From Planctomycetales bacterium (lineage in GTDB: Bacteria > 4484-113), in the NCBI GenBank assembly GCA_030606285.1, contig JAUWGS010000011.1, positions 1 to 64,000 of the forward strand: a stretch of 64,000 nt of DNA, read 5' to 3'. The notes below the pieces were generated by a model that worked only from the letters and a program-made list of their open reading frames with translations, had not been told where the DNA came from and searched no databases. Positions 52,545-57,887 of the stretch are shown piece after piece (positions within the stretch are counted from its first letter, which is position 1; every line of letters starts with the position of its first letter). The position numbers and the translations under genes are program-made.

Positions 52545-55500
52545 ATGGAGAAGCTCTTTGGCCAACTGGACGCGCTGATTGATGAGGCGGTTCGCCTCAC
52601 CAACGAAATCAAGGAAGCGGCGCGCATTGCCGAAAACGAAGCCGAGTTCCACCGCCGGGTGGTGAATGCGCTTGAACGGATTGCCGAGGAGCACAAACTC
52701 AGGGCGGAGCTGCGGCAGGAGCGGTTCGTCCTGAACACCGGTAGGATGGACGCGAACTTCTCGCACCTCATTCTGGAGTTCAAGTTCAGCAAGGGCGGCG
52801 TCCTCGGCGCGGACATTGAAAGCCCAGAGACCAAGAGGGCTGTATCTCAGCTTGAGGGGTACTTGGATGCCTTCCACCATGAGCAGCTCAAGCTTACTAG
52901 TCATCCTGCTAAGTCCCAGTTGTATGGCGTCCTGCTGGACGGCTATCGTATCGTGTTCGTCCGCTGGGCCGACCATTTCGGCTGGGTCGTGGACCCGCCG
53001 GCCGAGGTCAATCCCATATCGGTGGAGAAGCTGCTCAGGATTCTCGCAGCCTCCGCCTACGGCAAAGCGCTGACTCCGGAGAACCTGGTCAAGGACTTTG
53101 GCGCTGGCTCTAAACATGCGAAGAGGATGGGGTCAATCCTGTACGCCACGGTAGTGGACGACCCCAGCGCGCTCGCTGGCTGCATCTACAACCAGTGGAA
53201 AACCTTTTTCAGCGAGACTTGCGGCTACGAGGAAGGCTCCGCCAAACTCAAGCGCAAGCGTACGCTTCAGAAGTTCTGCGCGGATATGGGCGTGCCCTAT
53301 CGCGGTGTGGACATCGGCAAGCTCATATTCGCGGTTCATACCTACTACGCTTTCCTCATCAAGCTCATTGCCTATGCCGTGCTGGTGTCCAAGAAAACCA
53401 ACGGCGGCAATCCGCTTGCTGATTACCCTATTTCAACCAACGAGGAGTTGCACCAAAGGCTGAAAGATCTTGAGACCGGCCATGGATTCACGAGCTACTG
53501 GGGGATACGCAACTTCCCGGAGGACCCGTTCTTCACCTGGTACTTGCTAACGTGGAACGACGAGCTTGCTGATGCGATTCGCCGTCTGGGGTCCGCCTTG
53601 AGCGAGTATGACCCCACGACTTTCCGCCAGAAGCCCGAAGCGGCGCGCGACCTGTTGAAGAAGCTGTACCAGTACTTGATCCCCGGCGACATCCGCCACG
53701 ACCTGGGCGAGTATTACACGCCGGACTGGCTGGCGGAACTCACGCTCGATCGCACAGGCTTCAAGGGCGGGATGCGCGAGAAGCTTCTCGACCCGGCCTG
53801 CGGTTCGGGTACCTTCCTCGCATTAGCCATCAAGCGTAAGATAGACACCTGTCGCAATAAAGAGAAGCTGAGCGACGAAACGATACTTAAAGCCATTCTG
53901 GAAACCGTCAAGGGCATAGACCTCAACCCGCTGGCGGTGACGGCTGCCAGGGCGAACTATATCTTCGCCATTGACGAGCTCTTAGCCCACTATCCGTTCC
54001 AGCGAGAAATCCCCGTCTACCTTGCGGATTCGATATACCCGCCGAAGTCCTCCACCGACATCAGAAAGCCTAACGTACGCACCTTCCACACGGTAGTCGG
54101 CGAGTTCGACTTCCCGATTGCCGTCCGCACCGAAGCCGGAATGAGCTACGTGGCACAGTTTCTGCACGACCATGTCCGCGACGACCATTCCTTCGAGAGC
54201 TTCATTCAGAAGTTGATACTGAGCCGGGGCTACGTTGACGAAGACCTGTTCAATAACGGCGGCGACGTGGCCGCGGAGAACGTGGAGATCTTCCGCGACA
54301 TATACGAGCGGCTTTGCGAGCTTAAAAGGCAGAAGCGCGACAGCATCTGGGCGACCATCATTAAGAACGCCTATATGCCACTGTTCCTCAAGGACTTCGG
54401 CTACATTGCCGGCAATCCGCCCTGGGTGAACTGGGAAAGCTTGCCGGATAAGTATCGCCGCGAGACAATGCACCTATGGGCCGATTGCGGACTCTGGCGG
54501 CTAAAGAAAAAGGGCGGGATGGAGACTATTCTCGGAAAGAGCAAGCGCGACCTTTCCACGCTGATGCTATATGAATCGATGCGACGTTACCTGAAGGATG
54601 GTGGAAGACTGGGCTTCGTAATCACGCAATCAGTCTTCAAGACCGGTGCCGCTCAGGGATTCCGACACTTCGAGTTTCCGACGCAAGACCCGCTTGGGCC
54701 CGGAAAAGTGAACCTCAGCGTCGAATCCGCCGACGACTTTTGCGACTTCCAGCCCTTCGAAGCCGCGACCAATCGCACGGCGATGATTGTCCTGCGGCGG
54801 GGAATACCGATGGCTTATCCGATGAAGCACTACACCGTCTGGCAGAAGAAGCCCGGAAAGCGCATCCGGCCTGATTCCACGCTGGATGAAGTAAAGAAAG
54901 CAACCCGCAGGCTGCCGTATCACGCCAAGCCGGTAAGTACGAAGGATAAAACCTCATCGTGGATTACCGCGCGGCCCAAAGCGCTTGAAGCGCTCAAGAA
55001 GGTGCTGGGCCAGTCCGATTATCAAGCCCGAGCGGGCGTATACTCCGGCGGCCTAAACGCCGTTTACTGGCTCAAAGATGTTGAGCCAGCAGGCAAAGAC
55101 CCGCGTACCGGCAAGAAGCTTGTCCGTGCTTTAAACCTTACTAAGGGCAGCAAGAGCGGTGTACATCAACTCCGCGACCCGGTGCTGCTGGAAGAGGAAC
55201 TGGTCTATCCGCTGCTGCGGGGGCGGGACGTGAAGCGCTGGCAGGCGGAGCCTTCGGCGTGGATATTGATGGTGCAGGACCCTAAGACCCGCCGGGGGAT
55301 TGATGAAGACGTAATGCAGCGGGAGTACCCCCATGCGTGGAGCTACCTGAAACGCTTCGAGGATGAGCTTCGGCAACGCGCGGCATTCAAGCGCTATTTC
55401 ACCCGTAAGGAGAAGAAATCCGGCAAGGTGACCGAAACCGGCCCCTTCTACTCGATGTTCAATGTGGGCGAATACAGCTTCGCGAAATATAAGGTCGCGT

Positions 55501-55952
55501 GGAGAGAACAAGCCTCTCGAACGGAGTGCTGCTATATAACAGGAATGAAAGACATCTTACCTCTGCCAGACCACAAGTCGATGTTAGTCGCCTGCAAGAA
55601 CGCTCGCGAGGCGCATTACTTAGCTGCAATTATCAATTCAACTGCCTCTAACCTAGCGGTCCTTTCGTACGCTATTGGTGTGCAGTTTGATACTCACCTA
55701 ATCCAGAATGTGCGGATTGCCCAGTTTCAGCCGAAGAAAACTATCCATCGCCAGCTCGCGGAGCTATCCGAAAAGGCACACAAGCTGGCGGACGACGAGG
55801 AGTGGCAGGAGCTTGCCGAAGTAGAAGACCAGATTGACCTGCTCGTGGCGAAGCTCTATGGCATCAAGGACGATGAGCTTGAAGAGATAAAACGCAACCT
55901 GCGCGAACTCAAGAAAGAAGACCTGAAGACGGGCAAGCTGTTCCCGAAGTAG
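52545..55952 (+). CDS. Single-chain type IIG (Eco57I-like) restriction-modification enzyme
   Basis: 1135 residues. The N terminus has a PD-(D/E)xK-type nuclease motif (D69...E78-F-K80 in MDANFSHLILEFK). Then an N6-adenine methyltransferase: motif I LDPACGSGTFLALA (about 414-427), acidic loop GIDLNPLAVTAARANY, and motif IV NPPWVNW (about 624). The last 300 residues look like a TaqI-type target-recognition domain, with a helical end. One protein would therefore both modify and cut. No BREX or DISARM partner lies beside it. The ATG is 3 bases after the purD stop, so it is probably expressed with purD. Confidence 0.88.
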   Translation: MEKLFGQLDALIDEAVRLTNEIKEAARIAENEAEFHRRVVNALERIAEEHKLRAELRQERFVLNTGRMDANFSHLILEFKFSKGGVLGADIESPETKRAVSQLEGYLDAFHHEQLKLTSHPAKSQLYGVLLDGYRIVFVRWADHFGWVVDPPAEVNPISVEKLLRILAASAYGKALTPENLVKDFGAGSKHAKRMGSILYATVVDDPSALAGCIYNQWKTFFSETCGYEEGSAKLKRKRTLQKFCADMGVPYRGVDIGKLIFAVHTYYAFLIKLIAYAVLVSKKTNGGNPLADYPISTNEELHQRLKDLETGHGFTSYWGIRNFPEDPFFTWYLLTWNDELADAIRRLGSALSEYDPTTFRQKPEAARDLLKKLYQYLIPGDIRHDLGEYYTPDWLAELTLDRTGFKGGMREKLLDPACGSGTFLALAIKRKIDTCRNKEKLSDETILKAILETVKGIDLNPLAVTAARANYIFAIDELLAHYPFQREIPVYLADSIYPPKSSTDIRKPNVRTFHTVVGEFDFPIAVRTEAGMSYVAQFLHDHVRDDHSFESFIQKLILSRGYVDEDLFNNGGDVAAENVEIFRDIYERLCELKRQKRDSIWATIIKNAYMPLFLKDFGYIAGNPPWVNWESLPDKYRRETMHLWADCGLWRLKKKGGMETILGKSKRDLSTLMLYESMRRYLKDGGRLGFVITQSVFKTGAAQGFRHFEFPTQDPLGPGKVNLSVESADDFCDFQPFEAATNRTAMIVLRRGIPMAYPMKHYTVWQKKPGKRIRPDSTLDEVKKATRRLPYHAKPVSTKDKTSSWITARPKALEALKKVLGQSDYQARAGVYSGGLNAVYWLKDVEPAGKDPRTGKKLVRALNLTKGSKSGVHQLRDPVLLEEELVYPLLRGRDVKRWQAEPSAWILMVQDPKTRRGIDEDVMQREYPHAWSYLKRFEDELRQRAAFKRYFTRKEKKSGKVTETGPFYSMFNVGEYSFAKYKVAWREQASRTECCYITGMKDILPLPDHKSMLVACKNAREAHYLAAIINSTASNLAVLSYAIGVQFDTHLIQNVRIAQFQPKKTIHRQLAELSEKAHKLADDEEWQELAEVEDQIDLLVAKLYGIKDDELEEIKRNLRELKKEDLKTGKLFPK

Positions 55953-56423: not shown

Positions 56424-56447
56424 AGTGTGAGTTTAGCATGAGCCATG

Positions 56448-57206
56448 CTAAGGATATTGAACGCTTGCTGGCCATCTAAACTGCCACACGTTGAACTTCC
56501 TTTCACGCACGCGGGTTCCACTAGTCAGAACCGGCCTGCCCAACTTGGATTCGAGTGCCTTTACAAACTGGAACTTCGCAGTATCTTTGGAAAAACCTAC
56601 ATTAGCAGCTCTTGTTGCCCCTGCCAGTACATCTGCCAGTTGCAGTAAACGATAACGCTTGGAGTTGACCTCGGACACACTTATGACCTGAGGGTGGCCA
56701 GAATTCGCTGTACATCTTTTCTTAAGGTAGGAATTACAGACCGATATAAGAGTGGGTATCCGTCTAGGATCAGCCCACGGCTTCTGGTCAAGCCATACCT
56801 TGAAAGTATCTTCCGGCATGGTCCATTTGAGAGACTCCAGGTCTAACTTTATATTGCGAGTGAGAAAGAAGTAGTAGAGCTTGTAAAATCCGAGCTGATA
56901 GCTGCCCGTGTTGAATTTCTGAATGAACCGTCTGTAATCGGATGAACTCGTATCAGCGACCAAGCACCTGAAAGCAACATGCTTGCTTGCGAAAAACCAG
57001 CCTAAAAGGGCTTCATATCTATCAATGTTCGACCAGCAGATTTTCCTCCATTTCAGTTCGCCGAGAAGTCCCGAAGTGGTAGCCAGCTGATCTAAGCCCC
57101 GCTCCGCTTGTTCGCGAAACTTGCCCGGTACCCACAAGCTGCCGTATGCAAGGGAATCACTTGACTCGGGCACACCACTTTCATCGGCAAGTATATGAAT
57201 ACGCAT
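56448..57206 (-). CDS. DUF3800-domain protein
   Basis: 252 residues from the ATG at 57206. Starts MRIHILADESGVPESSDS, the DxSG-type opening of DUF3800, with LADTSSSDYRRFI and VNSKRYRLLQLADVLAGA later, the latter matching the conserved LQxADxxAG end. The family is thought to have an RNase H-like fold but its activity is not established. The start codon is only 15 bases after the tRNA-like element, with no ribosome-binding site in between. AT-richer than neighbours, so probably acquired. Confidence 0.85.
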   Translation of the reverse strand: MRIHILADESGVPESSDSLAYGSLWVPGKFREQAERGLDQLATTSGLLGELKWRKICWSNIDRYEALLGWFFASKHVAFRCLVADTSSSDYRRFIQKFNTGSYQLGFYKLYYFFLTRNIKLDLESLKWTMPEDTFKVWLDQKPWADPRRIPTLISVCNSYLKKRCTANSGHPQVISVSEVNSKRYRLLQLADVLAGATRAANVGFSKDTAKFQFVKALESKLGRPVLTSGTRVRERKFNVWQFRWPASVQYP

Positions 57207-57221
57207 AGTCACTGGCACAAT

Positions 57222-57289
57222 TGGAGGCGGGGGGAGTCGAACCCCCAAGCTTCAGTTTTGGAGACTGTGCTTGTCACCGGACCGCCCCC
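57222..57289 (-). tRNA. tRNA-Trp-like element (anticodon CCA) with reduced D arm
   Basis: Minus strand: acceptor GGGGGCG/CGCCTCC (7 pairs, one G-T), T arm GGGGG-TTCGACT-CCCCC, discriminator A at 222, anticodon loop CTCCAAA on a 4-bp stem (CAGT/ACTG, with an A-A mismatch as fifth pair). Positions 8-26 span only 14 bases instead of about 19; at best a 3-bp D stem GTC/GAC with loop CGGT forms. Total 68 bases, so it is a degenerate tRNA, a pseudo-tRNA or a mimic. A TATAAT box (57307-57302) lies about 13 bases upstream. Bases 57275-57260 are exactly complementary to the 5' end of the small RNA upstream. Confidence 0.55.
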
Positions 57290-57301
57290 GCGTGCTCCTT
57301 C

Positions 57302-57307
57302 ATTATA
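57302..57307 (-). promoter_or_regulatory. -10 box of the tRNA-Trp-like element
   Basis: TATAAT on the minus strand, directly after the T-run of the upstream terminator. Predicted start near 57295, 6 bases before the acceptor stem. Confidence 0.5.
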
Positions 57308-57310
57308 TAG

Positions 57311-57333
57311 AAAAAGGGCACCTTTCGGTGCCC
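57311..57333 (-). terminator. Intrinsic terminator of the candidate small RNA
   Basis: A 7-bp stem GGGCACC/GGTGCCC with a GAAA loop (minus strand) followed by TTTTTC, a textbook Rho-independent terminator. It stands between the candidate small RNA and the tRNA-like element, so the two would be separate transcripts. Confidence 0.8.
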
Positions 57334-57373
57334 TCCTGAAGCCTGTCCGCATAAAGCGACAAGCACAGTCTCC
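57311..57373 (-). ncRNA. Candidate small RNA complementary to the tRNA-Trp-like element
   Basis: TATAAT (57385-57380) predicts a start at 57373, and the terminator ends it at 57311, about 63 bases. The first 16 bases (GGAGACTGTGCTTGTC) are the exact reverse complement of 57275-57260, covering the D and anticodon arms of the tRNA-like element up to the second anticodon base. CTTGTCGC can also pair with GCGGACAGG in the RNA itself (one bulge), so self-folding and antisense pairing would compete. No known RNA family is recognised. Confidence 0.5.
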
Positions 57374-57579
57374 GCAAATATTATAACACAAATCTGGGAT
57401 TCCGGGGAATATATTCGACTTCCCAAGAGGTATTCGCGACTTGCAGTAGAAATTAAAGCGGAGTCTGATTCTCCGAGTACATCGAGCTTCGCGAGCAGAT
57501 CTGAGACCGGAGTGATCTGGAGTCGGATGACGGGGCCGAGCTGCTGGAGATTATCCTGGCGATAGTGGATCGAAGGCAT

Positions 57580-57840
57580 TTATGGCTGGATGAGTAGCGA
57601 GGTTATTGTTACCGGCTCTTCTTCTTCGGTAATCAGCTTAACGAGAAAGGGCACGTTTCCAAGCCGCAAGTAGCCTTCTTTAACGGCGTCCTTACGGGAA
57701 TTGAAGATCCCAAGGAGCTCGTCACCTTTTATCAAAACATATCGGCCTTCAGCTTTCACCAGAAGGTCGGGCTTGTGCTCTTCGAAGTATTTTATCTCGC
57801 AACCGAATACGTCGTTGACGCTTTCTCCCGAAATATCCAC
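57580..57840 (-). CDS. Small conserved-looking protein, unknown function
   Basis: 86 residues from a GTG at 57840. IKYFEEHKPDLLVKAEGRYVLIKGDELLGIFNSRKDAVKEG has the look of the small proteins that begin with a helix and a GKYVxIKG strand and are often found alone. No motif for catalysis. A TATAAT box (57855-57850) lies 10 bases before the GTG, so the mRNA would have almost no leader. It is divergent from ybaB. Confidence 0.7.
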   Translation of the reverse strand: MDISGESVNDVFGCEIKYFEEHKPDLLVKAEGRYVLIKGDELLGIFNSRKDAVKEGYLRLGNVPFLVKLITEEEEPVTITSLLIQP

Positions 57841-57887
57841 CGTGTTTTGATTATAACAGATTGCCCTGCCTGCCACTGCGCCTGTGC

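Follow-up and report, generated by a model that had tools for sequence, protein, structure and literature searches.

Structured RNAs located beside DUF3800 genes are a known kind of arrangement (PMC10910872, PMC11701678). An RNase H fold has been stated for RlfA, a DUF3800 protein of phage P1 (PMC3710099), and was likewise ascribed to a CRISPR-linked DUF3800 (PMC10910872). DUF3800 is also found among the accessories of some class 2 CRISPR loci (PMC12669027), and for plaque formation by P1, rlfA and rlfB both scored as nonessential (PMC10695390). Outside this family, the ncRNA RCd22 neutralises the AbiF protein through direct binding (PMC12373285). DUF3800 proteins are widespread; they occur in some CRISPR loci as well as in phages, plasmids, and defence islands.

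The locus described here shares with the Rfam motifs DUF3800-I (RF02969) and DUF3800-IX (RF02968) a small structured RNA that adjoins a DUF3800 gene; in contrast to those motifs, its RNA resembles a tRNA, immediately precedes the gene, and is accompanied by a complementary second RNA. As in the AbiF/RCd22 system, an ncRNA, the proposed partner, is located ahead of a defence-type gene. However, AbiF is not a DUF3800 protein, no antisense RNA is described for it, and in our locus toxicity and RNA–protein binding are both putative. Small structured antisense RNAs that act on folded targets are known from c4 of phages P1 and P7, and from RNAI. The common trait is that two complementary segments act (or, in our case, would act) on a folded target that is made next door; yet the targets of c4 and RNAI are not tRNA-like, and the small RNA considered here has a predicted promoter and a terminator of its own, upstream of its target and on the same strand. 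The initial annotation of the locus knew of no described system with this layout. This holds for the layout itself, since a tRNA-like/antisense RNA pair so arranged was not found in the literature searched, but not for structured RNAs near DUF3800 genes, of which DUF3800-I and DUF3800-IX are known examples.

A minus-strand locus conserved in a second genus

The window, i.e., the whole stretch of DNA that was analysed, comprises 64,000 nt of contig JAUWGS010000011.1 of assembly GCA_030606285.1, and all positions given are window positions (Table 1). Each of the parts named in the initial annotation, namely two TATAAT hexamers, a predicted 63-base RNA, a terminator, a tRNA-like element, and a DUF3800 gene, is present on the minus strand. 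The predicted small RNA start, GGAGAC at 57373, reads GGAGACTGTGCTTGTC and is located 7 nt after TGTTATAAT, with six bases in between. By sequence reading, a good −35 element was not seen at the TGTTATAAT promoter, and none was seen for the second TATAAT. The terminator of the small RNA was absent from the list produced by a consensus terminator scanner for the window.

The tRNA-like RNA ends 15 nt before the in-frame ATG at 57206, which had been taken as the DUF3800 start, and 9 nt before a GTG at 57212. The homologous start is probably this GTG, as it aligns with the ATG of the orthologue described below. The reported lack of a ribosome-binding site is correct for the window; it is not a kept trait, because the orthologue has AGGA before its start codon, as well as a longer gap before the start.

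Table 1. Positions of features at the locus and in its surroundings.
Feature	Positions	Strand	Basis and remarks
Extended −10 promoter of the small RNA, TGTTATAAT	57388–57380	minus	Read directly; promoter function putative
Predicted 63-nt small RNA: 5′ tail GGAGA, 12-bp hairpin, terminator	57373–57311	minus	Fold, conservation
X′ in the small RNA, 16 nt exactly complementary to X	57373–57358	minus	Identical in 4484_113
Y′ in the small RNA, 10 nt complementary to Y	57345–57336	minus	One G-U here; perfect in 4484_113
Intrinsic terminator of the small RNA, GGGCACC-GAAA-GGTGCCC-TTTTT	57335–57311	minus	Fold; compensatory pair change vs. 4484_113
TATAAT, a second −10 hexamer and likely the promoter for tRNA-like RNA and DUF3800	57307–57302	minus	Conservation; function putative
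D-armless tRNA-like RNA, 68 nt	57289–57222	minus	67/68 identical in 4484_113; tmRNA model 31.7 bits
X in the tRNA-like RNA, target of X′	57275–57260	minus	D-loop 3′ end, anticodon-arm 5′ strand, and C32–C35
Y in the tRNA-like RNA (anticodon-arm 3′ strand), target of Y′	57255–57246	minus	
DUF3800 gene (RlfA/PDC-M04A-type)	56448–57212	minus	Probable start GTG 57212, in-frame ATG 57206, stop at 56448
Type IIG restriction enzyme-methyltransferase	52545–55952	plus	PADLOC PDLC03630, 1066 bits; context, not part of the RNA pair
Unit missing from the same locus of a congener	56439–57880		blastn: alignments end at 56438, resume at 57881

A blastn search of 97 genomes revealed one further copy of the locus, on contig MVCR01000089.1 of Planctomycetales bacterium 4484_113, which belongs to the same family and to a different genus. 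The gene order is the same in both (ybaB, small RNA, tRNA-like RNA, DUF3800, restriction enzyme), and in 4484_113 the 3′ end of the restriction enzyme gene also adjoins DUF3800. The tRNA-like RNA is identical in the two genera at 67 of its 68 positions, and the part of the small RNA upstream of the terminator at 36 of 38; the 21-nt linker is mostly diverged, TATAATG being almost its only kept part, and the DUF3800 proteins are 63% identical. The promoter of the small RNA reads TGGTATAAT in 4484_113 and is found at the same place and with the same −10/+1 spacing, while the bases that follow it diverge. One pair of the terminator stem is A-U here and G-C in 4484_113, a compensatory change between the two copies. 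Thus, a structured RNA beside a DUF3800 gene is present at the same locus in two genera, which supports the view that the layout is a conserved unit. The initial annotation had proposed that genomes lacking an upstream complement would speak against its reading; the sole orthologous locus keeps the complement.

In a congener of the analysed genome, the genes that flank the unit are joined directly, i.e., the site is empty. A relative of the restriction enzyme was not found in the congener genome, which is 88% complete. A small ORF (57580–57807, minus strand, ~75 aa) is located between ybaB and the promoter of the small RNA in the window and has no match in Pfam or PADLOC; it is missing from both 4484_113 and the empty site of the congener.

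The tRNA-like RNA and its complementary small RNA

The predicted fold of the tRNA-like RNA consists of a 7-bp acceptor, a D loop that lacks a stem, a lengthened anticodon arm interrupted by a small internal loop, and a 5-bp T arm. The D stem of a canonical tRNA is thus absent from the predicted fold, and the anticodon arm is extended instead. The anticodon loop is CUCCAAA; the acceptor contains G3-U70 and A73, which are the determinants of alanine identity. The element is not called by ARAGORN and is not among the 47 matches to the Rfam tRNA model (RF00005) in its own genome, and a canonical tRNA-Trp was rejected on these grounds. The tmRNA model (RF00023) gave 31.7 bits (E = 5e-10), below its cut-off of 47. 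The T arm is identical (17/17) to that of the tmRNA of the same genome, and the acceptor departs from that of the tmRNA only at pair 6–67, where C-G replaces U-A in a compensated change, with G3-U70 and A73 kept. The anticodon arm most resembles that of the host's tRNA-Trp, which has GTCTCCAAAAC in common with the element. The designation “tRNA-Trp-like”, used in the initial annotation, is therefore apt for the anticodon loop, but not for the acceptor and T arm, which are tmRNA/tRNA-Ala-like. CCA is not encoded in the element; the same is true for most tRNA genes of the genome.

Judged from sequence and predicted fold, the most fitting description of the RNA is that of a miniature tRNA-like domain of the tmRNA type with a tRNA-Trp-type anticodon hairpin. 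It shares with tmRNA the stemless D loop, the G3-U70/A73 acceptor, and a T arm that the host's own tmRNA has in identical form, but whereas tmRNA is ~366 nt long and contains a tag frame and pseudoknots, the element is 68 nt long, has neither, and carries a tRNA-like anticodon hairpin. A normal tmRNA is encoded elsewhere in the genome, on another contig. A permuted or two-piece tmRNA was rejected, since the acceptor strands are in the normal order and the RF04321 model gave only 11.7 bits. No Rfam DUF3800 RNA family was detected at the locus by cmscan up to E = 10 (the comparison being with Rfam-curated motifs), and other Rfam families yielded weak matches only in the same search.

The initial annotation reported that the first 16 bases of the small RNA are exactly complementary to the D/anticodon arm of the tRNA-like element, and held that such a match cannot be due to chance. 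The complement (X′:X) is indeed exact, and on the target it runs, more precisely, from the D-loop 3′ end through the full 5′ strand of the anticodon arm to C32–C35 of the loop. X:X′ is the sole inverted repeat of at least 13 bp at a spacing of 30–300 nt in the 64-kb window (shuffled windows contained 0–4 chance inverted repeats of at least 12 bp), and it recurs letter for letter in the second genus; both observations argue against chance. A second complement had been missed, namely that between the 3′ arm of the small RNA hairpin (Y′) and the anticodon-arm 3′ strand (Y). Across the two copies available (n = 2), X and X′ are invariant, and Y′ carries one change with which pairing is kept.

In its predicted fold, the small RNA has an unpaired 5′ tail (GGAGA), a 12-bp hairpin, and the terminator (z = −5.1 in the window and −4.1 in 4484_113). 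According to the predictions, each of the two RNAs forms hairpins of its own; the tail of the small RNA is free, and the complement of this tail is located inside the anticodon loop. The predicted energy gain upon cofolding of the two was −16.5 kcal/mol, and −17.2 kcal/mol for the pair from 4484_113. The best value for the small RNA against 31 tRNAs of the same genome was −3.8 kcal/mol, and the value against the tmRNA was −3.0 kcal/mol; with 300 shuffled small RNAs, the gain was at most 11.7 kcal/mol. Pairing is thus strongly favoured and specific in the cofold prediction, and the two RNAs have the extended conserved complementarity and the favourable, specific predicted duplex expected of an antisense pair. 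Base-pairing between them is very likely, given the complementarity to both strands of one arm, a tail available for starting the interaction, separate putative promoters, and near-perfect conservation. In a read-through transcript, the two parts would make one long hairpin (z = −6.5). Transcription attenuation through X:X′ pairing was considered and discarded, since X lies behind the terminator and would thus be made too late to act.

The DUF3800 gene and possible roles of the RNA pair

The DUF3800 protein scored 26.2 bits with the Pfam DUF3800 profile (cut-off 21) and 124.7 bits with the PADLOC PDC-M04A profile, for which RlfA of phage P1 scored 317.6 bits. It is 28% identical to P1 RlfA; the DES and QLAD motifs are present, with D8-E9-S10 and Q189/D192 aligning with RlfA. 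An AlphaFold model built from three sequences was of low confidence (pLDDT 48). An rlfB/PDC-M04B gene was not found downstream of the window gene, where the next gene encodes a gamma-glutamylcyclotransferase. In all ten closer homologues tested, the gene directly downstream is PDC-M04B; three other, weaker-scoring homologues also lack an rlfB-type neighbour. The locus therefore has the DUF3800 subfamily in common with rlfAB of phage P1 and PADLOC PDC-M04, but differs in that rlfB follows the closer homologues and not the window gene, and in that no such RNA is annotated at P1 rlfA. RlfB (PDC-M04B), which directly follows the RlfA-type DUF3800 in the homologue loci and in phage P1, represents a family that Pfam does not match. 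The analysed genome also contains a complete rlfAB-like pair, PDC-M04A with PDC-M04B (contig C3:8217–8909; segment positions 2193–2627).

A second DUF3800 gene of the genome (contig C26:79219–79827; segment positions 1501–2109) has a DUF3800-IX RNA at its 3′ side. This RNA (RF02968, 52.7 bits) is located 20 bp downstream of the gene on the opposite strand (segment positions 2129–2194, minus), behind TGGTATAAT. It is a 67-nt three-way junction, and thus of about the same length as the tRNA-like RNA of the window.

Since the pair formed by the small RNA and the tRNA-like RNA is conserved almost letter for letter in a related genus, it very likely represents a genuine RNA switch that has not been described before. 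With regard to its role, we tentatively favour, at somewhat less than an even chance, a small and dispensable unit of a defence island. Within this unit, the dedicated antisense small RNA would control the tRNA-like RNA, which would form the leader of the DUF3800 nuclease gene and probably also be a partner of the nuclease. The unit is located, beside the type IIG restriction enzyme, in a small defence-type island and may have a role in defence. In this proposal, the second promoter would give rise to a transcript that opens with the tRNA-like RNA and runs on into DUF3800. RNase P and RNase Z might cut out the tRNA-like part, whose predicted fold resembles the upper half of tmRNA joined to a tRNA-Trp-like anticodon arm. 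The upstream promoter would produce the 63-nt hairpin RNA, whose GGAGA tail would dock on the anticodon loop (UCUCC). In the strand exchange that might follow, both arms of the small RNA would pair with both strands of the anticodon arm, which would be opened. The folded tRNA-like RNA may be a partner or a brake of DUF3800, or may mark and separate the DUF3800 leader, and the small RNA would set the share of the tRNA-like RNA that is folded. Transcription, processing, RNA–protein contact, and the direction of regulation are putative steps of this scheme.

We are less sure that DUF3800 is served by the tRNA-like RNA than that the two RNAs pair; the former is suggested by the adjacency of RNA and gene, by their joint presence and absence, by the missing rlfB, and by the precedent of structured RNAs at DUF3800 genes. 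The lack of an rlfB partner leaves room for an RNA partner of DUF3800. Against our favoured reading stand the number of examples, which is two, with the 16-mer the same in both, and the existence of other DUF3800 genes without the pair; the two RNAs may act on a target other than DUF3800, or the DUF3800 gene may simply be carried along. A partner or brake of DUF3800 is ranked first among the possible roles and pure leader control second; a decoy or sponge, an RNA-only toxin–antidote pair, and a relic are ranked lower.

Purely cis-acting control is an unlikely competitor. The tRNA-like fold would then be a processing site or roadblock in the DUF3800 leader, where an RNase P/Z cut leaves no ribosome-binding site, and the small RNA would prevent or permit folding, in a manner similar to that of antisense RNAs acting on leaders, with no further job for the tRNA-like RNA. 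The closeness of the tRNA-like RNA to the probable GTG and the lack of a ribosome-binding site in the window fit such control, as does the precedent of P1 c4, an antisense RNA with two complementary segments that derives from an upstream RNA. However, the 67/68 identity, which includes tRNA-specific tertiary positions, exceeds the needs of a roadblock, the start of the 4484_113 orthologue is preceded by a ribosome-binding site and by a longer gap, and the small RNA would hardly touch the acceptor and T stem, which are the parts mainly read by RNase P and RNase Z.

It is also conceivable, though again unlikely, that a tmRNA-derived alanine-type tRNA mimic with a Trp-like anticodon is itself the active species, as a toxin, an antitoxin, or a guide of DUF3800, and is unzipped through its anticodon by a dedicated antisense RNA. 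A defence-island system of this type, in which a tRNA-like RNA has an antisense RNA of its own, would be undescribed in the literature searched.

We consider it quite improbable that the tRNA-like RNA is a sponge for a small RNA whose true target is another RNA, such as the tRNA-Trp anticodon loop, or a bait for an anticodon nuclease of phage or host. The anticodon loop of the genome's tRNA-Trp does share GUCUCC, GTCTCCAAAAC is common to tRNA-Trp and the element, and copies of X with 1–2 mismatches are present elsewhere in the genome. However, the predicted pairing of the small RNA with tRNA-Trp is weak (−2.2 kcal/mol), and the genome-wide near-matches may be due to chance.

The prospects are poorer still for an RNA-only pair resembling a toxin–antitoxin system, in which the tRNA-like RNA is charged by AlaRS or bound by SmpB/EF-Tu, its CCA anticodon disturbs translation (by placing alanine at UGG or by trapping ribosomes), and the small RNA masks the anticodon. 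In its favour, the acceptor is of the type of the host's own tRNA-Ala and tmRNA, with the 6–67 pair compensated, the U33-CCA-A37 loop is intact, the T loop and the D-loop GG are kept, most of the host's tRNA genes also lack an encoded CCA, and the small RNA pairs, by prediction, with C32–C35. The absence of a D stem and the internal loop in the anticodon arm speak against it; such a role would also leave the constant company of DUF3800 unexplained, and we know of no example of a toxic tRNA of this kind.

The least probable reading is that of a relic, i.e., an integration scar or a pseudo-tRNA/tmRNA fragment with an inverted duplication and no present function. Integrative elements commonly attach at the tmRNA 3′ end, the T arm together with the 3′ acceptor strand agrees with that end of the host's tmRNA at 24 of 25 positions, and the locus is a presence/absence site; yet the near-identity across genera beside a diverged linker, the presence and compensation of the 5′ acceptor strand, the location of the host's tmRNA on another contig, and the absence of an integrase-like gene from the ORF list near the element all argue against it. 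An integration scar in a tmRNA gene is, specifically, unlikely in view of the tmRNA being on the other contig and of the empty-site comparison.

The locus is a minimal case, with a single protein, a partner-like RNA mimicking tRNA/tmRNA, and an antisense RNA that points to the anticodon arm as the part that matters, and the relation between DUF3800 and RNA would be testable with a construct of less than 1 kb.

Search for further copies

A 20-mer from the anticodon arm was searched for in ~85,000 species genomes, where it was present only in 4484_113 and in one chance match inside a reading frame, and in IMG/VR viral contigs, where there was no match. A covariance model of the whole element, applied to 385 genomes, recovered the two known copies only (189 and 182 bits); the next-best 18 loci, all scoring 42 bits or less, were checked and are genuine tRNAs. 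The initial annotation had proposed a search for DUF3800 genes that are preceded by a truncated tRNA. At the other DUF3800 loci searched, two more in the same genome included, neither a tRNA-like RNA nor a comparable inverted repeat was found.

A blastn search of phages and plasmids returned partial matches only. Among the plasmid matches that were examined and set aside, three from Thermus are ordinary tRNA-Trp genes, one from Thermus is a tmRNA, and two are located between tuf and secE, the usual place of tRNA-Trp. The ordinary tRNA-Trp gene of the three Thermus plasmids is not listed by PLSDB. The plasmid record of Thermus sp. NEB1569 (56 kb) contains, according to ARAGORN, a full tmRNA gene at positions 1085–1428 of the extracted segment, which adjoins an MNT/HEPN-type gene pair (nucleotidyltransferase, DUF86).
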